Origin: Nitrospirota bacterium
GTDB lineage: Bacteria > Nitrospirota > Nitrospiria > JACQBW01
Reading direction: 5' to 3'
Length of the DNA stretch: 34,027 nt
Assembly (NCBI GenBank): GCA_016201875.1
Contig: JACQBY010000060.1
Location: forward strand, 1 to 34,027
Position 1 is the first letter of the stretch. Each line of letters opens with the position of its first letter. Positions 23,989 to 34,027 of the stretch are shown one piece after another. The position numbers were made by a program, and so were the translations under genes. Below the pieces are notes generated by a model. That model saw nothing but the letters and a program-made list of their open reading frames with translations. It did not search any database and had not been told where the DNA came from.

Positions 23989-24575
23989 TAGGAGAGGAGG
24001 CCCATGATGCCCCTTCTCATCATACTAACAGCAATGGCGGCTAAAAGGAGCCCTGCGACTTTGGCAATGGCTCTCGATCCATTAATTCCCAACACCTTGA
24101 TGATCCATCCGGCTTCATAAAAAATAATCCAGGCGATGACCAGATTCACAAATATCGAAAAAATGACTAAACCGATGGGATAAGAACCGACTAAAATCAT
24201 GGCGGTCGTTAAGGTGGCCGGCCCGGCGATAATGGGGGTTCCCAGCGGAACAATCCCCACACTTTCTCCTATCGGAATTTTCTTTTCACCCTGCCTGAGG
24301 AGTTCCGTAATAGCAAAAATCAACAGGAGTATTCCTCCCGCGATCATAAAATCCTCAACCCGGATTCCAAGGACTTTAAACACCCCCTGGCCGATCACCA
24401 TAAAAATGACCGTGACCAGAAACGCGGTCATGACCGATTGGGTAATAATCTTTTTTTTGCTCTCTTTTGAAAAGCCTTCTGTCAGGGTAAAGTAGACAGG
24501 CAGAACCCCCAGAACATCAATGGCGACAAAAAGGGGGATAAAGGTAAAGAAAAACGAGTTGAGAAGAAGACTCAT
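23988..24575 (-). CDS. MarC-family integral membrane protein
   Basis: 195 aa with about six hydrophobic segments. Motifs FVAIDVLGVLPVYF near the N-terminus and GTPIIAGPATLTTAMIL (about 112-128) are typical of MarC/UPF0056. The family's transport role is not established; early links to multiple antibiotic resistance have been disputed. Its ATG overlaps the GroES gene stop (ATGA), so the two are coupled. The stop codon lies at the edge of a palindromic repeat. Confidence 0.94.
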   Translation of the reverse strand: MSLLLNSFFFTFIPLFVAIDVLGVLPVYFTLTEGFSKESKKKIITQSVMTAFLVTVIFMVIGQGVFKVLGIRVEDFMIAGGILLLIFAITELLRQGEKKIPIGESVGIVPLGTPIIAGPATLTTAMILVGSYPIGLVIFSIFVNLVIAWIIFYEAGWIIKVLGINGSRAIAKVAGLLLAAIAVSMMRRGIMGLLS

Positions 24576-24901
24576 TCCGTATAGCCCAAAACATCCCTCT
24601 CCCTGACCAGCAGATATTCTTTTCCTTCAATCTCGACCTGGGTGGAGCCATATTTTTCGAAAAAAACCCGCTGGCCCGGTTTCAAAACGGTTTTAACGAA
24701 CTTCTTTTCTTTTTTGGTCTCTTTTGCCTTCCCCCGTTTATCATATTCTTCTTCTTCAAGCCTTCCTTCGCCCACAGAAATGACTTCGCCTCTCTCTGTT
24801 TTTTCCCGGGCGCTCTCCGGAAGATAAATTCCGCCTCTGGTCTTTTCGGAAGCGGACTCCTGCTGGATCAAAACCCAATCATGCAATGGTCTAAATTTCA
24901 T
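24572..24901 (-). CDS. GroES-family co-chaperonin, stand-alone
   Basis: 109 aa, somewhat longer than the usual 95-100. It starts FRPLHDWVLIQQ and has the mobile-loop region SEKTRGGIYLPESAREKTERGEV with the hydrophobic tripeptide (IYL) that contacts GroEL. A charged insertion of about ten residues (EEEEYDKRGKAKETKKEKK, about 50-68) precedes the VLKPGQRVFFEKYG block. No groEL is adjacent; marC follows by ATGA overlap. AAGGA precedes the ATG by about eight bases. Probably a second GroES paralogue; whether a canonical groESL exists elsewhere cannot be seen. Confidence 0.92.
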   Translation of the reverse strand: MKFRPLHDWVLIQQESASEKTRGGIYLPESAREKTERGEVISVGEGRLEEEEYDKRGKAKETKKEKKFVKTVLKPGQRVFFEKYGSTQVEIEGKEYLLVRERDVLGYTE

Positions 24902-24992
24902 CTATTTTTCCTTTCATGGAAAACTCAGGTCTGCTGAGGAATGGTCGAAAGTCCGGTATCAGGACTCTCAGAGAATTGAATAAACTCCCGGT

Positions 24993-25021
24993 ATTATAAT
25001 ATCTGTTTGAGAAGAATGCAA
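24993..25021 (-). promoter_or_regulatory. Predicted promoter of groES-marC, inside the 3' end of the PiT gene
   Basis: Minus-strand TTGCAT (25016-25021), 17-base spacer, perfect TATAAT (24993-24998). The -10 overlaps the PiT stop codon. The leader would be about 85 bases and contains a small AGTCC/GGACT hairpin. No CIRCE heat-shock element was seen. Confidence 0.6.
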
Positions 25022-25983
25022 ATGACCCATGCCATGAGCGCAGACGCGGGGAGCGTTAATATCCAGGCGGAAACAATGTTGATTCCTATTCCCCATTTGA
25101 CCGCGGAGAGTCTCCGGGTCGATCCCACCCCCATAATAGCGGCGCTGATCGTATGGGTCGTGCTGATCGGCACCCCGATATGGGAGGCCGCTTCGATCAC
25201 CGACGCGGCCGAAATTTCCGCGGCAAAACCGTGAATCGGTTTTAGCGCGGTGATTTTAAGGCCGAGGGTCCGGATAATCCGCCACCCGCCAAACGCCGTC
25301 CCCGCGGCCATGGCAAATGCGCATGAAACGATTACCCACACCGGAACATGAAACTCGGTTAATGAATAGAAACTGACCAGGGCCGCGGTGATAATCCCCA
25401 TCGATTTTTGAGAATCGTTGCTCCCATGACTGAACGCCATGTAAGAAGCGGAGACGATCTGCAGTTTCTGGGAAATGCCGGTCACTCTCGACGGGGTGCT
25501 CCGATGAAAAACCCAGAGGAGAGCGGCCATCACCAGCCAGCCACAAAGAAACCCGATCAAAGGAGAGAGAAAAAGGGCGATCAGGATTTTTTTTAATCCG
25601 CTCCAGATCAGGACTTGATACCCCCCTGTCGCGATGCCGGCCCCGACCAATCCGGCTAAAAGGGCGTGGCTCGAACTCGAAGGGAGCCCGGAATACCAGG
25701 TAATTAAATTCCAGATAATGGCGGCAATAAGCGCCGCGATAATGGTCGCCTGGGTTACCGCCTGGGCGGCCACCAATCCGGCCCCGACGGTTTTGGCCAC
25801 CGCCGTTCCTGAAAATGCGCCGATCAGGTTCATCATCGCGGCCATGGCGATCCCCATTTTCGGGGTCATGACCCGCGTCGAAATCACGGTGGCAATGGCA
25901 TTTGAAGAGTCATGGAAGCCATTGATAAAATCAAAAATAAGCGCCAGGATCACAACGGCGACAAGAAGGTAAAAAGGTTCCAT
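24994..25983 (-). CDS. PiT-family inorganic phosphate transporter
   Basis: 329 aa, about ten membrane segments. The two PiT signatures are present: DFINGFHDSSNAIATVI near residue 19 and FSHGSNDSQKSMGI around 190. It imports metal-phosphate by proton symport in characterised relatives; some homologues carry sulfate. I use ATG 25983, which overlaps the DUF47 gene stop (TGATG), over the TTG one codon upstream. Transcribed with its DUF47 partner, a standard pairing. Confidence 0.95.
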   Translation of the reverse strand: MEPFYLLVAVVILALIFDFINGFHDSSNAIATVISTRVMTPKMGIAMAAMMNLIGAFSGTAVAKTVGAGLVAAQAVTQATIIAALIAAIIWNLITWYSGLPSSSSHALLAGLVGAGIATGGYQVLIWSGLKKILIALFLSPLIGFLCGWLVMAALLWVFHRSTPSRVTGISQKLQIVSASYMAFSHGSNDSQKSMGIITAALVSFYSLTEFHVPVWVIVSCAFAMAAGTAFGGWRIIRTLGLKITALKPIHGFAAEISAASVIEAASHIGVPISTTHTISAAIMGVGSTRRLSAVKWGIGINIVSAWILTLPASALMAWVICILLKQIL

Positions 25984-26597
25984 CAAGTATTTTTCAGCGA
26001 AATCGTCTCCAGAATATTGGAAACGTCTTCACACCGGTCGGTCGCTTCTTCAAGGTTTTCGTAAATCTCTTTCCATTTAATGATCTTGATCGGGTCTTTT
26101 TCTTCTTCAAACAATCTTGCCAGGGCCTCGTTCAGTACCCGGTCGGCCTCATTTTCGAGCCGGTTAATTTCAATAAAATGGGAGGAGTCTATCGGTCCCT
26201 TTCCCAGAAGGGAAACGGTCCGGACCACTTCCGCCGTGCACTGGCAAATAATATCGGCCAGGCTTCTGGCTTCGGGGGTCGCTTCTCTAATCTTAAAGAT
26301 GACCATCTTATTGGCCGCGGCATCGGTCAGGTCAAGGACATCGTCAAGCGCTCCGGAAAGGTCATAAATATCCTCCCGGTCGATCGGGGTAATAAAGGTC
26401 GTATTCAGTTTCTTAATAATTTCATGGGTGATCGTATCCCCCTGGTGTTCTATATCTTTGACTTCTCTTACTCTCTTCTCAATATCGGCCCCGGGTTCCA
26501 TCACTTTTTTTATTGCGATCCCTCCCAGGTGAATGTTTTTTGCAGACTCATTAAACAGCTCGAAAAACTTTTCTTCTTTCGGTAAAAAGCTAAACAT
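25983..26597 (-). CDS. DUF47 (PhoU-like) phosphate transport accessory protein
   Basis: 204 aa, all helical, of the TIGR00153/DUF47 family, with repeated acidic metal-binding segments such as KDIEHQGDTITHEI, REDIYDLSGALDDVLD and LENEADRVLNEAL. It is thought to regulate the adjacent PiT transporter. ATG 26597 has AAGGA six bases upstream; the ATG at 26615 has its purine run directly against the codon and is less suitable. Coupled to the transporter by a TGATG overlap. Confidence 0.94.
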   Translation of the reverse strand: MFSFLPKEEKFFELFNESAKNIHLGGIAIKKVMEPGADIEKRVREVKDIEHQGDTITHEIIKKLNTTFITPIDREDIYDLSGALDDVLDLTDAAANKMVIFKIREATPEARSLADIICQCTAEVVRTVSLLGKGPIDSSHFIEINRLENEADRVLNEALARLFEEEKDPIKIIKWKEIYENLEEATDRCEDVSNILETISLKNT

Positions 26598-26641
26598 AAA
26601 TTTCCTTTCGTTCATCCCTTCCAGACGAAATTTTGTTCATT

Positions 26642-26670
26642 AAGATAACTCCAAATCCAGAAACAATCAA
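26642..26670 (-). promoter_or_regulatory. Possible promoter of the DUF47-PiT operon
   Basis: Minus-strand TTGATT (26665-26670), 17-base spacer, TATCTT (26642-26647). Four of six at both boxes. No Pho-box-like direct repeats were recognised. Confidence 0.4.
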
Positions 26671-26769
26671 GAGAATTTAAAAGTTTCCCGGCCGAAACCG
26701 GACAAACCGGACAATGCCTTGCCTGATCAGACTTTTTATGGTACCTTATTCGGACAGGAGACAAAACCG

Positions 26770-27051
26770 ATGAAAATAACCGAAGATATCAAACCCATTA
26801 CTTATCTAAAATCAAAAACCGCTGACATGCTTAATCAGATTAACGAAACTCACAGACCGGTTATCATCACACAGAATGGCGAACCCCGCGCCGTTTTGCA
26901 AGATCCTGAATCCTACGAACGAATGAAATCCGCAATCGGTTTGATGAAGCTTCTTGGCCAGGGAGAAGAAGATGTCCGGGTTGGCAGAACCCGCGAACAG
27001 GGTGAGGTATTCAGCCGGCTTAAAACCAAAATAAAGAGCAGAAAACAATAG
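26770..27051 (+). CDS. Phd/YefM-family antitoxin
   Basis: 93 aa. The N-terminal half has the Phd/YefM DNA-binding fold with KPITYLKSKTADMLNQINETHRPVIITQNGEPRAVL, the conserved family block. The C-terminal basic tail (ending KTKIKSRKQ) would wrap the toxin. ATG 26770 is chosen for the AGGAG about nine bases upstream; the frame is open 17 codons further but lacks a ribosome site. The toxin gene starts 128 bases downstream and not immediately adjacent. Confidence 0.93.
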   Translation: MKITEDIKPITYLKSKTADMLNQINETHRPVIITQNGEPRAVLQDPESYERMKSAIGLMKLLGQGEEDVRVGRTREQGEVFSRLKTKIKSRKQ

Positions 27052-27080
27052 ATGCCCAGCGAGCAAGGCAAGCGTCGTAT

Positions 27081-27161
27081 CCCCTCCCTTGATGGGAGGG
27101 GTAGGGGAGGGTGAAAAGGTGATTTAAGCCCCTCTCCCAGCCTCTCCCACAAGGGGAGAGG
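27081..27161 (+). repeat. Double hairpin repeat between antitoxin and toxin
   Basis: CCCCTCCC/GGGAGGGG (8-bp stem, 27081-27101) and CCTCTCCC/GGGAGAGG (8-bp stem, 27141-27161) separated by an A/T-richer middle. Such paired C/G-rich hairpins resemble dispersed intergenic repeats in many genomes. It fills most of the 128-bp gap between antitoxin and toxin. Confidence 0.7.
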
Positions 27162-27179
27162 AGTCGTAAGGGTATCGGT

Positions 27180-27503
27180 ATGAGTCATAAATATTTCGTC
27201 AGATGGACAGAAACAGCAGAGGAGGATTTAAACAATATCATTGAGGATATCGCTGAAGAAAATCCGCACAGGGCATTGGAGGTTTTGGAAAACCTTCGCA
27301 GAAAAGCTTTGCATTTGAACACTCTGCCTGAAAGGGGACGAATTGTTCCTGAACTAAAAGATCATGGGATCACTCTTTTCAGGGAATTAATCTTTGCCCC
27401 GTGGCGGATGATCTACAGAATATCAGGAGAGACAGTGTATGTCCTGGCTCTTTTTGATTCAAGACGCAATCTGGAAGACATTCTCCTCGACAGGTTTCTT
27501 TGA
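27180..27503 (+). CDS. RelE/ParE-family toxin
   Basis: 107 aa, typical size. The fold signature is visible: WTETAEEDLNNIIEDIAEENPHRA helices, RGRIVPEL, then FRELIFAPWRMIYRISGETVYVLALFDSRRNLEDILL strands. It could be an mRNA interferase or a gyrase inhibitor; the sequence does not settle which. Arg and Tyr residues of the last strands are present, so it looks intact. The start is ATG with a weak GGT-rich upstream site. Confidence 0.92.
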   Translation: MSHKYFVRWTETAEEDLNNIIEDIAEENPHRALEVLENLRRKALHLNTLPERGRIVPELKDHGITLFRELIFAPWRMIYRISGETVYVLALFDSRRNLEDILLDRFL

Positions 27504-27830
27504 GAATTCTGAAATAAACAGGTCCCTTTAATTAAAAAGGCATCATATTTTTTGTCGGTAGTAATCGATTTCATGCTCAATGCCTTCGACCCGCTTCCGA
27601 AATCCACCATCCAACTTTAGTTTCTCCGATACCCAATCGCAGACCCATCCCAACACCGTAACTCCCAACACCAAAACTGTCTTGTGTGCTGTATTACATA
27701 GCGCTTAACGTGGTAGACAGCACCAGTATAATCTAAGCGAAGCAATCGGGACATTCAGACCTTAATGATCAACTATATAAAAGTAATATTCAACAAAAGA
27801 TTTGACCCCTTTATTTGTTCTGATTTTCTA
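27504..27830 (+). other. Intergenic region, no confident gene
   Basis: About 330 bases after the toxin gene. No gene with family resemblance was found. On the minus strand 27543-27671 could encode a 42-aa peptide from a GTG start, with a hydrophobic N-terminus and a charged helical tail ending EIDYYRQKI; there is no ribosome site I would rely on. The region precedes a strong terminator and could equally hold a small RNA or gene remnants. Confidence 0.5.
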
Positions 27831-27831
27831 A

Positions 27832-27872
27832 GGGAAACAGATTAAATGTTCAATCTGTTTCTCTTTTTTTTT
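27832..27872 (+). terminator. Strong intrinsic terminator
   Basis: GAAACAGATT (27834-27843) pairs perfectly with AATCTGTTTC (27852-27861) around an eight-base loop. The stem can be extended by two pairs and is followed by nine T residues (27864-27872). It stands 330 bases past the toxin gene, so it may end the toxin transcript or that of an unseen RNA. Confidence 0.85.
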
Positions 27873-27932
27873 AATTTTTTCACTCCATATCAAACTTTTA
27901 TTATAAAAATATAACCTCCCTTTAACTTGCCG

Positions 27933-27961
27933 TTGATTTTTTTATATCGTTTAGATATGAT
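27933..27961 (+). promoter_or_regulatory. Predicted promoter of the DUF3015 pair
   Basis: TTGATT (27933-27938), 17-base spacer, TATGAT (27956-27961; five of six). The leader to the first DUF3015 ATG would be about 60 bases. The region is AT-rich and lies right after an intrinsic terminator, which insulates the locus. Confidence 0.6.
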
Positions 27962-28027
27962 TTGGCCCGACTTGAAAATATTAAAGTCATGAAGTTCTTA
28001 TAAATCAAAATTAACAGGAGGGATGGC

Positions 28028-28498
28028 ATGAAGAAATTCGTAGCACTAACAGTAGCATTCATTTCTTTATTGTTTGTAGGAAGTAGTTTTGCCGCCGATG
28101 GAGAATATGGCGCCGCAGGTTGCGGCCTCGGTTCTCTGTTATTTGGAAAACAACCTGGTTTTGTTCAGGTTTTTGCTGCAACGACAAATAACAGCACCTA
28201 TACCAATATGTTTGGAATTACCTCCGGAACATCCAATTGTAATAAAAATACGGTATTTGCCTCCAACGACAGGTTAAACAGCTTTGTCCAGAACAACCTG
28301 GACAACCTCGCAAAGGAGATCGCTATGGGAGAGGGAGAATCGCTTGACACCCTGGCAGAATTAATGGAAATCCCTGTTGAAGAAAAAACTGCTTTCAATA
28401 AAAATCTTCAGGCCAATTTTAAATCTATTTTCCCGTCTAAAAATGTCGTCGTTGCGGGCGTTATCAATAATATCATTGCAGTCACCTTGGCCAATTAA
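28028..28498 (+). CDS. DUF3015 family secreted protein, paralogue 1
   Basis: 156 aa with a signal peptide (cleavage near SFA-ADG). The mature protein opens YGAAGCGLGSLLFGKQPG and has TSGTSNCNK, the two conserved cysteines that could form a disulfide. The next block, NNLDNLAKEIAMGEGESLDTLAEL, is shared with the neighbour. DUF3015 proteins are periplasmic or envelope proteins of unknown function. GGAGGG lies five bases before the ATG. First gene after the promoter at 27933. Confidence 0.93.
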   Translation: MKKFVALTVAFISLLFVGSSFAADGEYGAAGCGLGSLLFGKQPGFVQVFAATTNNSTYTNMFGITSGTSNCNKNTVFASNDRLNSFVQNNLDNLAKEIAMGEGESLDTLAELMEIPVEEKTAFNKNLQANFKSIFPSKNVVVAGVINNIIAVTLAN

Positions 28499-28548
28499 TC
28501 AGGTAAAATACTTTAATTATCATTCATAATTATTTTAAGGAGGTTTTG

Positions 28549-29022
28549 ATGAAAAAACTCTTAGTTGTGGCGATTCTTGTATCTTTTTCTTTAATCGGTA
28601 TTAGGTCTGCTTTTGCGGTCGAGAGAACCTACGGGGCAGCCGGATGCGGTTTAGGCTCCATGTTGCTGGGAAACGAGCCTGGGATGATTCAGGTACTTGT
28701 GCTCACACTTAACAGTCTAGCTTATAACCAAACATTCGGAATTTCATCGGGAACGTTGAATTGCGAGAAAACTCCCACCAAGTTTGTCGCCAATCCGCAA
28801 TTGAACCAGTTTGTCGTTGCAAACCTGGATTCCCTGGCCAAAGATATTGCCAGGGGAGAAGGGGAATCTCTCAATACCCTCGCCGAACTGACCGGACTTT
28901 CCTCCGACAAGAAAGTGGCGATTTTTCAGAAATTACAGGCCAACTTCTCAAATATCTTTCCCTCCGAAAAGGTTGAAGCTCCCGAAGTGATTGATCAGAT
29001 CATGAAGATTCTCAACAGTTAA
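28549..29022 (+). CDS. DUF3015 family secreted protein, paralogue 2
   Basis: 157 aa, signal peptide cleaved near AFA-VER. It shares with paralogue 1 the blocks YGAAGCGLGSMLLG, SSGTLNC and ARGEGESLNTLAEL, so the pair arose by tandem duplication; intervening residues have diverged substantially. AAGGAGG precedes ATG 28549 by five bases; a TTG one codon earlier is ignored. An intrinsic terminator begins 31 bases after its stop, inside the next gene. Confidence 0.93.
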   Translation: MKKLLVVAILVSFSLIGIRSAFAVERTYGAAGCGLGSMLLGNEPGMIQVLVLTLNSLAYNQTFGISSGTLNCEKTPTKFVANPQLNQFVVANLDSLAKDIARGEGESLNTLAELTGLSSDKKVAIFQKLQANFSNIFPSEKVEAPEVIDQIMKILNS

Positions 29023-29037
29023 TCCGGTCAATACTTA

Positions 29038-30942
29038 ATGGCCAGTTCTTTCAGGGGATATGGATTTTTTCTAAAATCCATATCCCCTTTTTTCATATTT
29101 CTCATCCTTGTTCTCTCCCCTGTCCGAGGGGATGAACTCCCATCTCTCGATCAACTTCTGGTAAAAGCTAAAGAAAACAAACTTTCGGAAAACCGTTACT
29201 GGCTCATTCTCCTCCATTACCAGTCCACTCTAACAGGCCATAAAAGTCTCATTGACGATCCGCAGTTTTTCCTCGCTTCAGATGGAAAGAAAAATCCAGA
29301 AGGAGAGCTCGCGGCCACGCTTAAAGCCTTTTTTAATTCAAGTGAAAAAGGGGATAACCATCCTCGATGCAGATTCCCGGCCCGTTATGAATGGCTCAAA
29401 TCAGTATTGAATTGGGAGGAGTCTCTTTTTTCGAACATTTCATGTGACGAATTCAGGAAATATGAGTTGACCCTTCAACCCAAATCGGCAGTTCTGGTCT
29501 TTCCTGCTTTTTTTATGAATAACCCGGCTTCGATGTTCGGACATACCCTTCTTCGGATTGACAACGCTTCTCAGAGTAAACTCCTCTCCTTTTCGGCAAA
29601 CTACGCGGCTTTCCCGGATTCTTTTGGGATTCTTTACCCTATTAAAGGAGTTTTTGGTTATTACAAAGGATTTTTTTCCATTTTCCCTTACTATGACACC
29701 GTCAAAATGTATAATGATACCGAACAGAGAGATATGTGGGAATACCATCTGAACTTTTCTGAAGCAGAACTTCAAAAAATGATCTGGCATCTCTGGGAAC
29801 TTAAAAACATCTATTCCTACTATTACTTCTTTGACGAAAATTGCTCCTATAATTTACTTTATCTTTTTGAGGCGGCCCGGCCCTCTCTTCACTTAACCGA
29901 CAGGAGCTGGTTCTGGACGATTCCCACCGACACCCTGAGAGCCATTCAAGCGGAAGGGGTGGTTGAAAACGCCGAGTTTCGTCCAGCCAAAGGAACAAAG
30001 ATCCGCTATATCGCTTCCCAACTTAATGAAACCGGTGAAGATAGTGCGTTAAAAATTGTGGAACAGAAACTTGATCCGTCCCAACTCCAGGCAAAAGATC
30101 ATGACGAAAAGAAGAAAATTCTGGACCTGGCTGTAGAAGAAATTCAGTATCAATACAATAAACACCAAATGGAAAAAGATATTTATCTCAAACTCTTTTT
30201 ATCGACTTTGAATGGACGGAGTAAATTGGGGAATTCAGGGAGCGATCCTTATCAGATTCCGGTCCCGATGCCTCCAGAAACAGGCCATCGATCCAGCCGA
30301 ATAAGCCTGGGGGGAGGAATCAGAAAGAACAGTTTCTTTGAAGAGATCAGCTATCGTCCCGCTTATCACACCCTGGTGGATCCGGAGGAAGGATTCGCGA
30401 GAGGATTGCAGATTGTTTTTGCCGATACAACCGTCAGGGCCTATAACGACGGCAGAATAAAATTGGAAAGTTTCGATCTAATCGATATTGTTTCTCTCTC
30501 TCCCCGGGACCGTTTTTTCAAGCCTCTTTCATACAAAATTAAAACCGGCTTTACCCAACAGATGACCCCTTCCGGAGATGACCGGAGGGTCTACAGGCTG
30601 AACCCGGGAGTCGGCATGGCATTTGAAAACCGACAGATCGGATTAGTTTATGGACTGGCGGAGATCAGCTTGAACTTGAGTGAAGAATTCAGAGACCGAT
30701 ATGCTTTGGGAGGGGGTCTTCAGATTGGCGTCATTAAACAGATCGCCGATTCCTGGAAAATGACCTTCTCTCTCGAAAAAATCGCTTATCCTGTCAGGAA
30801 TGTGTTTCAGGAAAACAGAGCGACTGCCATTCAAACATTTAAATTAAACCAGAATAACAGCCTCAATCTTTCCCTCCTCTGGGATGAAGCGTTTAATCAC
30901 GACCAAACAGAAGTCAAAATCAATTGGAATATTTATTTTTGA
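29038..30942 (+). CDS. DUF4105 (Lnb N-terminal periplasmic) protein with possible C-terminal beta-barrel
   Basis: 634 aa. Signal peptide to about residue 31 (VRG-DELP). The DUF4105 core includes NPASMFGHTLLRID (His169) and DENCSYNLLYLFE (Cys269); these conserved His and Cys suggest a papain-like thiol fold, which is inference. From about 425 onward the sequence alternates in beta-strand pattern and ends VKINWNIYF, an outer-membrane barrel-like terminal Phe, suggesting an anchored barrel. Codons 6-18 encode the stem of an intrinsic terminator (29053-29093). No in-frame alternative start lies beyond it that keeps the signal peptide. Poor ribosome site. Likely functions with the DUF3015 proteins. 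Confidence 0.9.
   Translation: MASSFRGYGFFLKSISPFFIFLILVLSPVRGDELPSLDQLLVKAKENKLSENRYWLILLHYQSTLTGHKSLIDDPQFFLASDGKKNPEGELAATLKAFFNSSEKGDNHPRCRFPARYEWLKSVLNWEESLFSNISCDEFRKYELTLQPKSAVLVFPAFFMNNPASMFGHTLLRIDNASQSKLLSFSANYAAFPDSFGILYPIKGVFGYYKGFFSIFPYYDTVKMYNDTEQRDMWEYHLNFSEAELQKMIWHLWELKNIYSYYYFFDENCSYNLLYLFEAARPSLHLTDRSWFWTIPTDTLRAIQAEGVVENAEFRPAKGTKIRYIASQLNETGEDSALKIVEQKLDPSQLQAKDHDEKKKILDLAVEEIQYQYNKHQMEKDIYLKLFLSTLNGRSKLGNSGSDPYQIPVPMPPETGHRSSRISLGGGIRKNSFFEEISYRPAYHTLVDPEEGFARGLQIVFADTTVRAYNDGRIKLESFDLIDIVSLSPRDRFFKPLSYKIKTGFTQQMTPSGDDRRVYRLNPGVGMAFENRQIGLVYGLAEISLNLSEEFRDRYALGGGLQIGVIKQIADSWKMTFSLEKIAYPVRNVFQENRATAIQTFKLNQNNSLNLSLLWDEAFNHDQTEVKINWNIYF
29053..29093 (+). terminator. Intrinsic terminator inside the DUF4105 signal-peptide codons
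   Basis: AGGGGATATGGATTTT (29053-29068) pairs with AAAATCCATATCCCCT (29073-29088) without mismatch, a 16-bp stem with a four-base loop, followed by six T residues (29088-29093). It should end the DUF3015 transcript, yet it lies within the coding region of the next gene, so that gene would need read-through, antitermination or translation that opens the stem. Confidence 0.85.
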
Positions 30943-31790
30943 AAAATTCAAAAAACCGGCTTTTTCTGATTTTTCTGGCAATCATACTGGGAGGCTGTAA
31001 CGGTATTTTTTATCAGCCGACACCGAATCTTCTTATGACGCCCGAAAAATTAAAATATACCTATGAGGATGTCTCTTTTAAAAGTCTGGACGGAACCGTT
31101 TTAAACGGCTGGTTTATTCCGGGACGAGGGAACATTAAAGGAACAGTGCTCCAGTTTCATGGAAACGGAGCAAATATCGGCAATCATTATGGAGCAGTCT
31201 ACTGGCTTCCGGATGAGGGGTATAACGTCTTCCTGTTTGATTACAGGGGATATGGAAAATCAGGAGGGACCCCCGCCCGGCAGGGGATTCAGGAAGACGG
31301 GATTGCCGCGCTGGAATATATTCGGCAAAGAGCTGATGTCATTCCTTATCCTATTATCATTTATGGACAGAGCCTGGGAGGTGCGGTGGCGGTTTCTACC
31401 GTTGCCACCCAAAAACAGGATGGGATTGTGGCGGTCATCCTGGAAAGCTCATTTACCGGCTATCGCGCTATAGCCAGGGAAAAACTTGGCTCGCTTTGGT
31501 TAACATGGCCTCTTCAATGGCCGTTATCTTTTTTAATCTCGAATGAATACTCTCCGCTCGATATGATCGGAAAAATCTCTCCGGTTCCGCTATTGATCGT
31601 TCATGGAGACGCCGACGAAGTCATTCCAAAACATCATTCCGAAACACTTTTTAAGACCGCAAGAAAACCGAAAACGCTCTGGATCATTCCCGGAGGTCAT
31701 CACATCGACGCTTTCTCATACCCCCATCAGGAAAACCGGAAGAGACTCCTGGAATTTCTTGAGCAAGCGTTACAAACAACCGTCCATTAA
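30939..31790 (+). CDS. Alpha/beta-hydrolase lipoprotein
   Basis: 283 aa from TTG 30939, which overlaps the DUF4105 stop (TTGA) and gives a canonical lipoprotein signal with lipobox LGGC (Cys20). An earlier TTG at 30924 would add five residues. The hydrolase fold has nucleophile Ser145 (YGQSLGG), acid Asp224 (HGDADEVIP) and a His254/255 pair (PGGHHIDAF). It resembles the BAAT/DUF-type envelope hydrolases near FrsA/YsiB-like proteins; the substrate is unknown. Cotranslation with the DUF4105 gene suggests shared function at the outer membrane. Confidence 0.9.
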   Translation: MKNSKNRLFLIFLAIILGGCNGIFYQPTPNLLMTPEKLKYTYEDVSFKSLDGTVLNGWFIPGRGNIKGTVLQFHGNGANIGNHYGAVYWLPDEGYNVFLFDYRGYGKSGGTPARQGIQEDGIAALEYIRQRADVIPYPIIIYGQSLGGAVAVSTVATQKQDGIVAVILESSFTGYRAIAREKLGSLWLTWPLQWPLSFLISNEYSPLDMIGKISPVPLLIVHGDADEVIPKHHSETLFKTARKPKTLWIIPGGHHIDAFSYPHQENRKRLLEFLEQALQTTVH

Positions 31791-31983
31791 ACGTCACGGT
31801 CACGTCAAAATCCGCTATAAATCGTCATTCCCGCGAAAGCGGGAATCCATAAGATGTTGATTTTTTGAATTCTGGATTCCCGATAAAAACATTCGGGAAT
31901 GACGAATTGAATTCTTTGTAAAACCTCTGACATTTTTTTAGAGAGTTTGCTCACAGAATGACGTGACCCTGCATTAAACGTCA
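31785..31983 (+). repeat. Palindromic element with terminal inverted repeats and 12-bp flanking direct repeats
   Basis: CATTAAACGTCA occurs at 31785-31796 and 31972-31983. Just inside are GGTCACGTCA (31798-31807) and its reverse complement TGACGTGACC (31959-31968). The interior holds the GTCATTCCC...GGAATCCA and TGGATTCCC...GGGAATGAC hairpin pair (31823-31904). The left direct repeat contains the hydrolase stop codon. This has the layout of a small inserted element. Nothing else is recognisable up to 32044. Confidence 0.7.
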
Positions 31984-32044
31984 TTTTGCTTTTAAATCAA
32001 TACTGTTTAGGTTACACTTTTAAAAAGAAGGAGGGTTCTTCGTC

Positions 32045-32485
32045 ATGTTTAAAACTTTTTTATGGCTCTTATTTCTGGTAATCACCTTTGCAACGGGCTA
32101 TTATTTCGGAGAGCGCCATTCTTTTGTTTTACCCGGACAAATTTCAGAGATCCCTTCTGAACTCTCGTCCAGAACCTCTAATCTGGAACATACGTTGAAG
32201 GGAATCCGCCTCTGGATGGCTCTCAATGATTCCAAAGACCACCTGGGTCTTGCTTCGTCTGCCCTGGAAGAAAAAAATTTCGGGAGCGCCGTGAATGAAG
32301 TGAGAGAAGCCAAAGTGAAGCTGGAAAAGGCGGAGAGCCTTTCGCAGGGAGAGTTGAAAAAAGAGCTGAAACCGCTGAACCAGTTGATTTTGAAAACCGA
32401 AGCGGATCTTGCGCAAATGGACCCTAAAGCCAAATATCAGGTCGACAGTGCAAAAAACAGGCTCGAAAAGATCATTTCAAAATAG
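32045..32485 (+). CDS. Membrane-anchored coiled-coil protein, unknown function
   Basis: 146 aa. One N-terminal hydrophobic segment (about 4-21) followed by a soluble, charged helical domain with heptads (LEHTLKGIRLWMALNDSKDHL, VREAKVKLEKAESL). No family recognised; shape recalls small envelope proteins that count or space subunits. AAGGAGGG lies nine bases before the ATG. It converges with the small minus-strand gene at 32477-32647, overlapping by nine bases. Confidence 0.82.
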   Translation: MFKTFLWLLFLVITFATGYYFGERHSFVLPGQISEIPSELSSRTSNLEHTLKGIRLWMALNDSKDHLGLASSALEEKNFGSAVNEVREAKVKLEKAESLSQGELKKELKPLNQLILKTEADLAQMDPKAKYQVDSAKNRLEKIISK

Positions 32486-32647
32486 CCCCTGATCCTTTTG
32501 ACGCTTAAAGAAACAGAGATAAGAAGGCGCCTCTCCTTCTTGAAACCGGATATGGATTAACTCCCACCCGTCGTTTCCGATGAAATTCAGCTGGTTGGTT
32601 ATTTGCACGGCGCTGAGTTCTTCAACGCGATACTCCCACGCCCTCAT
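32477..32647 (-). CDS. DUF4177-like 56-aa protein
   Basis: A short gene, easily missed. The 56 residues begin MRAWEYRVEELSAV and contain LNFIGNDGWELIHIRF, then PSYLCFFKRQ; this is the WEY...GWEL...FKR pattern of DUF4177. Function unknown. Its ATG overlaps the stop of the patatin gene as ATGA, the same coupling used elsewhere in this window, which strongly supports translation. The 3' end overlaps the convergent gene's last codons. Confidence 0.8.
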   Translation of the reverse strand: MRAWEYRVEELSAVQITNQLNFIGNDGWELIHIRFQEGEAPSYLCFFKRQKDQGLF

Positions 32648-33630
32648 GAAGGGCTTTCGTTGAGTTCTGTAAACAGGGTATCAGGGAGGTTTTCCGTTTT
32701 CGGAAGGGTCGCCTGTTTTGGCTTTCCCAGCCAGAATTGCTTTAACCGTTTATTCCGAATCTCCCGTTTGATGCTTTCGACCATCGCCCGCGCCGCCTCT
32801 TCTCCCGCCTTGTAGCATTCCAGACCCCGGTGAAACTCGGCCCAATGAATATGCCCGACATTGGGGCGGATGACAACATCTGCATGGCTTAGCTGAATTT
32901 CGCTTAAAACATTCCGGGTCATGTCGCTCGCCCGTAAAACAATCTCAATCCCCCGTTTAAGTTCCGAGGGTTCAAGATCATTTGACGCCTCTATCGCAAT
33001 GGTAAAAGTGGCTCCGTGTCTGAAGGCAGGCTCTATCGGCACACGGTTAACCCATCCGCCGTCAATTAACTGCATCTTCCCGATTTTAACAGGGGGGAAA
33101 ACACCCGGAATGGCACAGCTGGCCGCGACGGCCTCTCTCATCGGACCTTTCGATAAAATGACCTCGTCCCCCGAAAGAATATCGGCGGCCACGCAGACAA
33201 AGGGAATCTGCGTATTTTCAATCTTCATGTCCGCAATCAATCCGCTTAACGTTTTCTGGAGTTCTTCGCCGCTGATAAAATAACCCCGGTTTAAAGAAAT
33301 GCCATAAAACATCCCTCTTTTGATATAGGACTTTATCTGATTGATCAAAGTCGTATTTTTGACTTCGGTAAAGCTTTCTTTTAAAAATTCGAGCCGGGCA
33401 TGTTTAAACAGCGGGGTTTTTAAAAATTTGATGATTCTATCTTTAATCAGAGCCGCATTGGGTTCGATGGCGTAAAGGCCTCCGACAAGAGATCCGAAGC
33501 TGGTCCCCGAGATAATGTCGACAGGGATATTTTCTTCTTCAAAGACTTTTAAGACCCCCAGGTGGGCAAACCCCCGGGTTCCGCCGCCCCCCAGGACAAT
33601 CCCGATTTTAAAAGATTTGTTGATTTCCAT
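32644..33630 (-). CDS. Patatin-like phospholipase family protein (second)
   Basis: 328 aa, cytoplasmic. The oxyanion loop GGGGTRGFAHLGVL (about 14-27) is canonical, the nucleophile elbow is GTSFG (42-46, Ser44) and the dyad aspartate is Asp190 (LIDGGWVN). A C-terminal Lys/Arg-rich extension (about 285-328) is present. It is a lipid acyl hydrolase by family; the substrate is unknown. It is 14 bases after the Lys-rich gene and coupled to the DUF4177-like gene. Confidence 0.93.
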   Translation of the reverse strand: MEINKSFKIGIVLGGGGTRGFAHLGVLKVFEEENIPVDIISGTSFGSLVGGLYAIEPNAALIKDRIIKFLKTPLFKHARLEFLKESFTEVKNTTLINQIKSYIKRGMFYGISLNRGYFISGEELQKTLSGLIADMKIENTQIPFVCVAADILSGDEVILSKGPMREAVAASCAIPGVFPPVKIGKMQLIDGGWVNRVPIEPAFRHGATFTIAIEASNDLEPSELKRGIEIVLRASDMTRNVLSEIQLSHADVVIRPNVGHIHWAEFHRGLECYKAGEEAARAMVESIKREIRNKRLKQFWLGKPKQATLPKTENLPDTLFTELNESPS

Positions 33631-33644
33631 GTGGATCAGGCCGC

Positions 33645-33887
33645 CTATCCTCCGGTTTTAGGAGCCGCTTTCCCTTCCTCGCCTGTTTTCTTTTTTACCT
33701 TTTTAGTTTCGATCTGCCGGGCTTTTAAATCGAGCGCTTTCTTTTTCCGCTGGGACCGTTTTAACTTCTTGCTCCAGTAACGGACCGTCTCCCGTTCCTC
33801 TGCTTTTCCGGCAAAGGAGGCTTTGACTTTGGTCAGTTTTTTCTTCAATCTTTCTACTTTCTTGACTAACGGATCGGTGGTTGCCAT
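33645..33887 (-). CDS. Small lysine-rich coiled-coil protein
   Basis: 80 aa, with 22 Lys and 6 Arg. The sequence is helical (VKKVERLKKKLTKVKASF, ERETVRYWSKKLKRSQRKKKAL) with an alanine/glycine-rich tail. Such basic proteins may bind nucleic acid or ribosomes; no family is recognised. AAGGAGA lies four bases before the ATG. It starts the minus-strand group with the second patatin. Confidence 0.78.
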   Translation of the reverse strand: MATTDPLVKKVERLKKKLTKVKASFAGKAEERETVRYWSKKLKRSQRKKKALDLKARQIETKKVKKKTGEEGKAAPKTGG

Positions 33888-33935
33888 CTTTTCTCCTTGG
33901 TTTTATCTAGTGCTTGATTGCCATAATACACGTTA

Positions 33936-34003
33936 CGTCATTCCCGAATGATTTTATCGGGAATCCATTGATTTTGCTAGATACCCGCTTTCGCGGGTAT
34001 GAC
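33936..34003 (+). repeat. GTCATTCCC-type palindromic repeat pair
   Basis: Hairpin CGTCATTCCCGAATG...CGGGAATCCA (33936-33967) then a variant TAGATACCCGCTTTCGCGGGTATGAC (33978-34003). Same order as the pair in the 139-bp repeats. It lies upstream of the Lys-rich gene. Confidence 0.75.
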
Positions 34004-34027
34004 AATTTACTTGCGCTAACTTTTGCA

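Follow-up and report, generated by a model that had tools for sequence, protein, structure and literature searches.

The DUF4105 gene of this Nitrospirota contig raises the question of why a perfect hairpin followed by a run of T residues, the anatomy of an intrinsic terminator, lies within the codons of a signal peptide. In the window (the whole 34,027-nt stretch of DNA that was analysed), the element follows two copies of a DUF3015 gene in an operon with the following parts.

27933-27961, + strand: possible operon promoter, TTGATT-17-TATGAT (consensus match only)
28016-28021, + strand: AGGAGG, Shine-Dalgarno site of DUF3015 copy 1 (from the sequence)
28028-28498, + strand: DUF3015 copy 1 (PF11220; Pfam E 3.1e-40)
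28537-28544, + strand: AAGGAGGT, full-consensus Shine-Dalgarno site of DUF3015 copy 2 (from the sequence)
28549-29022, + strand: DUF3015 copy 2 (PF11220; Pfam E 2.3e-37), TAA stop at 29020-29022
29038-29040, + strand: ATG of the DUF4105 gene, with no Shine-Dalgarno site; kept in the relative G002
29038-29130, + strand: signal peptide MASSFRGYGFFLKSISPFFIFLILVLSPVRG (from the translation; cleavage site judged by eye)
29038-30942, + strand: DUF4105 gene, comprising Lnb_N (PF13387), DUF7843 and DUF7840 (from Pfam and alignment)
30924-31790, + strand: alpha/beta hydrolase ORF, which overlaps the end of DUF4105; next gene of the operon, in the same order in G002

The DUF4105 product scores 163.6 bits against PF13387, for which the cut-off is 22.2, and belongs to the Lnb_N/DUF4105 family. 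The available part of PMC12994826 describes a catalytic His and Cys in the permuted NlpC/P60 core of this family; H169 and C269, which are invariant in a 12-row alignment, would be this pair. The Bacteroides Lnb, a DUF4105 protein, is reported to be a lipoprotein N-acyltransferase (cited in the same part of PMC12994826), and a low dose would plausibly suit a DUF4105 enzyme of this kind. The ATG at 29038 is the only canonical start that gives the signal peptide, with no other ATG, GTG or TTG before the mature protein. The gene order and strand in the window are those expected around a terminator internal to an operon; promoters were assessed by pattern scanning.

The initial annotation described a perfect 16-bp stem, a four-base loop and a six-T tail at 29053-29093, which proves correct to the base.

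29053-29068, + strand: 5' arm of the terminator stem, with the codons for R, G, Y, G and F
29069-29072, + strand: loop TTCT (from the sequence and the fold)
29073-29088, + strand: 3' arm of the terminator stem, which encodes K, S, I, S and P
29088-29093, + strand: T tract, the first T of which also pairs with A 29053; it begins the hydrophobic core (F, F, I)

The two arms form 16 pairs, of which 6 are G-C, with 0 mismatches. The stem and the T tail occupy codons 6-19 of the DUF4105 gene, close to the span of codons 6-18 given for it in that annotation. The gap between the stop codon of DUF3015 copy 2 and the stem is 30 nt, and the stem begins at base 31, in agreement with the distance of 31 bases noted earlier. 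The overlap of the stem with the n-region and the start of the hydrophobic core, also proposed then, is confirmed.

The segment 29045-29100 has a minimum free energy of -24.9 kcal/mol (z = -7.2; matched by 0 of 200 shuffles), the 16-bp stem has an energy of -24.3 kcal/mol, and the terminator score is 34.9 (formula as implemented here). A stable stem-loop adjoined on the same strand by a T-rich tract, which defines an intrinsic terminator, is present in the window, and the stem is the longest among the 27 terminator-like sites in 24000-34027 (14.3 expected). That only 6 of the 16 pairs are G-C counts against the terminator reading. When the window peptide is recoded at random with synonymous codons, 0 of 300 recodings are as good. 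An Rfam scan of the window at gathering scores gives no match to a known RNA regulatory family. A dispersed repeat was considered and rejected: among the exact matches in the window's genome, the stem core occurs as one inverted pair, with one lone further match. A covariance model of 28 loci places the junction site as the top match in each of the 4 genomes searched, a rank that is partly built in, as the loci of those 4 genomes were in the model.

The second-best match of this model in the window's genome (40.9 bits) is another terminator-like hairpin at 27830-27873, with 14 pairs and then a T run, approximately 155 nt before DUF3015 copy 1. A promoter-like sequence at 27705-27732 would give a transcript of approximately 130 nt ending at this hairpin, possibly a small RNA or a leader attenuator. 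No counterpart of the hairpin is found upstream of DUF3015 in G002. Further upstream of the operon, a Phd/YefM antitoxin and ParE toxin pair lies at 26719-27503.

Two other genomes of the window's family were compared. Neither DUF3015 nor DUF4105 is found in G001, and the operon is present in the nearest relative, G002, the DUF4105 protein of which shares 72% amino-acid identity with that of the window. In G002, start codon, stem and T tract all occupy the positions that they have in the window. Over its second half the element is identical in the two for 24 nt, the longest exact run in the gene, and 231 of the 434 comparable codons for the same amino acid are identical. The G002 hairpin folds at -21.8 kcal/mol (z -4.4); one A-U pair has changed to G-U, and the innermost pairs beside the loop are lost. 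A second, shorter DUF3015-like ORF (L002:4287-4673) is present in G002 downstream of the hydrolase.

A query of genome contigs with the single protein found no relative, and an alignment query did find relatives. The survey comprises 227 DUF4105 loci (30, plus 100 stretches from class Nitrospiria, 80 named multi-phylum records and 17 others), and 211 of them have a same-strand DUF3015 gene upstream. In 199 of these 211 the distance from the DUF3015 stop to DUF4105 codon 60 is at most 360 nt and fully readable, which gives 180 distinct junctions. With a hairpin called at -14 kcal/mol or lower within 100 nt of the DUF3015 stop, and with expectations taken from dinucleotide shuffles, a strong hairpin is present in 147 of the 180 junctions against 5.0 expected, and a hairpin with at least 5 T in 8 in 110 of the 180 against 1.1 expected. 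Control regions of the same operons rarely contain one: 12 of 103 after the DUF4105 stop at the same loci, 11 of 178 at the end of the DUF3015 gene, and 7 of 176 at the DUF3015 start, where 0 have a T tract. The surveyed loci are interrelated, so the counts are not independent; most are metagenome bins, and their start codons are predicted. The junction hairpin is not due to chance.

The T tract is weak (fewer than 5 T in 8) in 37 of the 147 hairpins. No hairpin is called in 33 of the 180 junctions, although at least two of these calls (L149 and L150, outside the 147) are wrong, the DUF3015 stop having been mis-set. Several of the 33 are complete, for example those in Desulfoluna and the Nitrospiria families f5 and f8, and the element is therefore not needed by every such operon.

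Sorting 149 hairpins (the 147 together with L149 and L150) by their distance to codon 60 reveals two layouts, with 33 hairpins near, 111 far and 5 between. In the near, or embedded, set, 32 of 33 loci have an in-frame ATG, GTG or TTG ahead of the stem and a frame that stays open through it, compared with 5 and 4 in the other frames. A stop codon within the stem occurs in 0 of 33 in the DUF4105 frame versus 16 and 8 in the other two. One codon register, in which a codon's first base is paired to the third base of the codon opposite it, is common to 28 of the 33, and the peptide (K/R)GYG....SIS(L/P)F recurs, followed by Phe, Ile and Leu. The phyla represented include Nitrospirota, Thermodesulfobacteriota and Spirochaetota. 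On this evidence the embedded stem, that of the window among them, is predicted to be read as protein.

In the far set (111 loci, mostly Nitrospiraceae), the register of the stem is scattered (50, 32 and 29), and the likely DUF4105 start, a GTG, TTG or ATG, is mostly approximately 15-25 nt past the stem. Because this hairpin is read in all three registers, it is classed as a non-coding leader before the predicted DUF4105 start; a coding hairpin in Nitrospiraceae is ruled out by the scattered register and the likely start past the stem. Five loci of one group (L200, L203, L211, L075 and L055) have an intermediate hairpin distance with a common register and perhaps represent a third layout. In L048 and L052 (class Nitrospiria, family f12), the DUF4105 frame contains no ATG, GTG or TTG between a point 40 nt upstream of the DUF3015 stop and the mature protein, and the DUF4105 start codon may be unusual.

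In a tree of 118 DUF4105 proteins from which the signal peptide was removed, the midpoint split (support 100) leaves all 29 embedded rows together on one side and 0 among the 59 rows on the other; the tree was made by a quick method with a root for drawing only. Some rows labelled no_hairpin (such as L143, L154, L155 and L157) do carry hairpins, their junctions being believed duplicates of other rows. The window and G002 cluster with 'Deltaproteobacteria' records and the 'Nitrospira sp.' metagenome bin L143, apart from the Nitrospiraceae in their class, and this placement suggests a transfer or an old split.

The embedded hairpins were aligned in 28 rows, consisting of 27 of the 33 embedded loci and the displaced locus L176; L152, L175, L187, L234, L235 and L236 were left out. 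The paired positions are complementary in 95.4% of 392 cells, a value that is partly built in, since the rows were picked for a hairpin, which does not apply to the both-sided changes. These occur in 13 of 14 pairs and in 91 cells against 22.8 by shuffle. The covariation score is 0.719 compared with at most 0.228 for slid partners, and a separate consensus fold gives the same helix. Conservation of the stem in relatives, suggested as a check by the initial annotation, is hence found together with compensatory changes, and the structure is kept by selection, as for an intrinsic terminator. The d'Aubenton-Carafa score (formula as implemented here) exceeds 0 for 32 of the 33 embedded hairpins and for 104 of the remaining 116. 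A matched criterion is passed by 30 of the 33 embedded hairpins, compared with 2 of the 67 that fall within the DUF4105 gene.

The same data bear on whether the peptide alone is selected, with the hairpin a by-product of signal-peptide codons or of chance. Signal-peptide cores are U-rich and the (K/R)GYG....SIS(L/P)F motif does recur, as this explanation would have it. However, recoding the peptide at random with synonymous codons fails to give the hairpin: in a group of 38 loci, picked by a start before the stem and so different from the 33 picked by distance alone, the observed value is reached in 0 of 300 recodings at 29 loci and in 1-10 of 300 at 8, and the remaining locus, L187, has no terminator by the criterion of this test. 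Additionally, the stem pairs covary, the hairpin is kept where it is non-coding, and the DUF3015 start regions show neither the frequency of hairpins nor any T tract. A by-product of this sort is scarcely credible.

The T tract is also conserved. T 29088, T 29090 and T 29093 are invariant over the 28 rows and a fourth position nearly so. The proportion of T is highest, at approximately 0.49-0.66, over the 8-9 nt that directly follow the stem and falls to approximately 0.25-0.45 beyond them, the non-coding set included; because T also peaks in the far set, the tract is not a mere by-product of hydrophobic codons. This matters for a reading in which the hairpin mainly shields the 3' end of the DUF3015 mRNA against exonucleases after processing, or hinders translation of DUF4105, and transcription does not stop. 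The hairpin does belong to the end of DUF3015 and lies near the DUF4105 start in both layouts, and similar stem-loops also affect the stability of the upstream transcript, as the accessible portion of PMC9045158 reports. Neither function, however, needs a T tract, which is kept even where it is non-coding, nor the three invariant T residues, and we regard this reading as improbable.

Where DUF4105 lies more than 360 nt away, a hairpin is still present behind the DUF3015 stop in 10 of 11 loci; at least 5 T in 8 follow it in 6 of these displaced loci, and the T tract is poor in 4 of the 11. Among 16 loci in which no DUF3015 is seen, at least 5 of which are cut by a contig end, a hairpin is present in one, L106, the stretch of which, at 348 bases, is too short to show DUF3015. 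Since the hairpin stays after DUF3015 when DUF4105 is displaced, the element belongs to DUF3015 as the 3' end of that gene, and in the embedded form the DUF4105 frame appears to extend into it. The initial annotation had not foreseen that the hairpin is, by these comparisons, a DUF3015 3' end across several phyla and that it is usually placed outside the predicted DUF4105 coding sequence.

Inserts of approximately 670-860 nt separate DUF3015 from DUF4105 in six Nitrospiria loci (L018, L022, L127, L086, L103 and L126). Three inserts contain toxin-antitoxin-like ORFs (HicA-like; Phd/YefM-like with PIN-like; HicB-like), of which the HicA and Phd matches are below the Pfam cut-off and the PIN-like ORF has no Pfam match. 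In L086, L103 and L126 the hairpin is kept behind DUF3015 with a poor T tract.

The translation signals of the two genes differ. A Shine-Dalgarno match of at least 5 nt is present at 34 of the 36 DUF3015 starts with enough sequence, and 33 of 38 DUF4105 starts have no match of even 4 nt, which is consistent with the excess of DUF3015 over DUF4105 predicted in the initial annotation. Among the 32 embedded loci with a start, 24 have it 0-10 nt past the DUF3015 stop, as would be expected for reinitiation. In the window, DUF3015 copy 2 and DUF4105 share one frame; a fusion by read-through of the stop codon was rejected, as the frame relation varies between loci.

The reading that we prefer, and consider probable, is that of a partial intrinsic terminator of DUF3015 inside the DUF3015-DUF4105(Lnb_N)-hydrolase operon, which would keep DUF3015 high and DUF4105 low. 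Most polymerases would halt at the T tract and leave abundant DUF3015 mRNA with a stable hairpin end, and a minority would read through to make the sole mRNA for full-length DUF4105. In the embedded form, the DUF4105 start would lie between the DUF3015 stop and the stem, with the stem serving as code for the n-region and the T tract as code for the start of the core. Translation of DUF4105, which has no Shine-Dalgarno site, probably relies on ribosomes that come directly from translating DUF3015. We infer the termination, its partial efficiency, its stoichiometric purpose and the reinitiation from the arrangement of the sequence. This reading has a cost in that termination inside DUF4105 would strand ribosomes on an mRNA lacking a stop codon.

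Since the stem of the embedded form lies behind the start codon, mRNA for full-length DUF4105 must cross the stem, whatever promoter it comes from. A separate promoter past the stem, named by the initial annotation as a finding that would overturn its proposal, could not yield the full protein from the ATG at 29038, the only canonical start being upstream of the stem, and it was rejected for this layout. In the leader layout, a separate promoter past the hairpin, with a leaderless mRNA, is possible.

One reporter study bears on the efficiency of a terminator so placed. It is PMC4824070, which we take to be the work of Li and co-workers (NAR 2015). The available part of PMC4824070 reports, for E. 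coli, that terminators act efficiently when they lie within 100 bp of the start of a gene, and that termination is repressed by a ribosome at a stop codon if the stem begins less than approximately 27 nt further on. By analogy, the 30-nt spacing of the window would leave the terminator mostly active, and the spacing of 7-14 nt in many Nitrospiraceae would make it leakier. Wu and co-workers describe, in the accessible portion of PMC9045158, transporter operons in which stem-loops after the first gene lower the later genes and set transcript ratios.

The spacing also invites a regulated form of the element, as the initial annotation suggested in calling it an attenuator: a ribosome ending DUF3015 or starting DUF4105 would cover the lower stem, and read-through would report the distance between ribosome and polymerase. 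An initiating ribosome covers approximately 15 nt downstream, and the embedded starts, at a median of 15-17.5 nt before the stem, place it within reach of such a ribosome. The leader-layout hairpin lies mostly 7-14 nt past the stop, in the range of repression reported for E. coli in the available part of PMC4824070. The spacing varies, however, with the embedded stem 16-47 nt past the stop and the first start 8-43 nt before the stem, and there is neither a conserved antiterminator pairing nor a known signal. The duplex energy of the 5' arm with the upstream RNA of the DUF3015 3' end, compared with shuffles at 38 loci, reveals no antiterminator (mean z 0.06). The terminator-like anatomy of the proposed attenuator stands, and no conserved antiterminator accompanies it; regulation by this route is unlikely.

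A narrower idea concerns one old DUF3015-lnb branch, in which the terminator lies in the signal-peptide codons and a restarting ribosome would either unfold the stem or fail. If this were true, translation would gate the expression of a lipoprotein-modifying enzyme exactly at its export signal, and one set of nucleotides would have to serve polymerase, ribosome and secretion machinery simultaneously. We hold this idea to be doubtful.

The partial terminator, if correctly read, predicts how the ratio of DUF3015 to Lnb is set in bacteria in which neither protein has been studied, and it ties a small exported protein of no known role, DUF3015, to a lipoprotein-modifying enzyme. The embedded form would be a natural and deeply conserved case of dual selection on one stretch, for terminator and signal peptide, with covariation separating both. 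Gene finders and terminator finders tend to exclude each other's territory and can miss such elements.

A literature search, to which subscription journals were mostly closed, returned no description of a terminator in the DUF3015-DUF4105 junction. The nearest systems are known from sources available in part. In ABC importer operons of Clostridia (PMC9045158), a long stem-loop likewise follows directly on a highly expressed gene for an exported protein, lying between the binding-protein gene and the transporter genes, and lower transcript is likewise expected for the genes behind it. Those terminators, as far as the accessible text goes, are intergenic and their effect was measured, whereas here the stem and T tract lie in the coding sequence of the next gene at 33 loci and are known from sequence. 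The terminator tR2, inserted within 100 bp of a gene start in E. coli (PMC4824070), is alike in that it functions shortly after the beginning of a second gene, because the polymerase is still ahead of the ribosome there; those constructs are artificial, and the available part of that study gives no natural, conserved case of this gene pair. Attenuators in leader peptides, pyrBI for instance (named in the same part of PMC4824070), also have a terminator hairpin in a reading frame, where the position of the ribosome could matter, but regulate through a short leader peptide and pause sites, whereas the frame here is that of a full enzyme and no alternative structure is found. In Borrelia burgdorferi (PMC10319736), terminator-like RNA ends are also found within genes, 151 of 994 scoring as intrinsic; the accessible part of this catalogue is genome-wide for one species and includes no dual-coding hairpin shared across phyla. 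Terminators within operons and within genes are known already; what seems to be new, in the literature covered, is a single covarying terminator, located in the codons for the next gene's signal peptide and kept across phyla.
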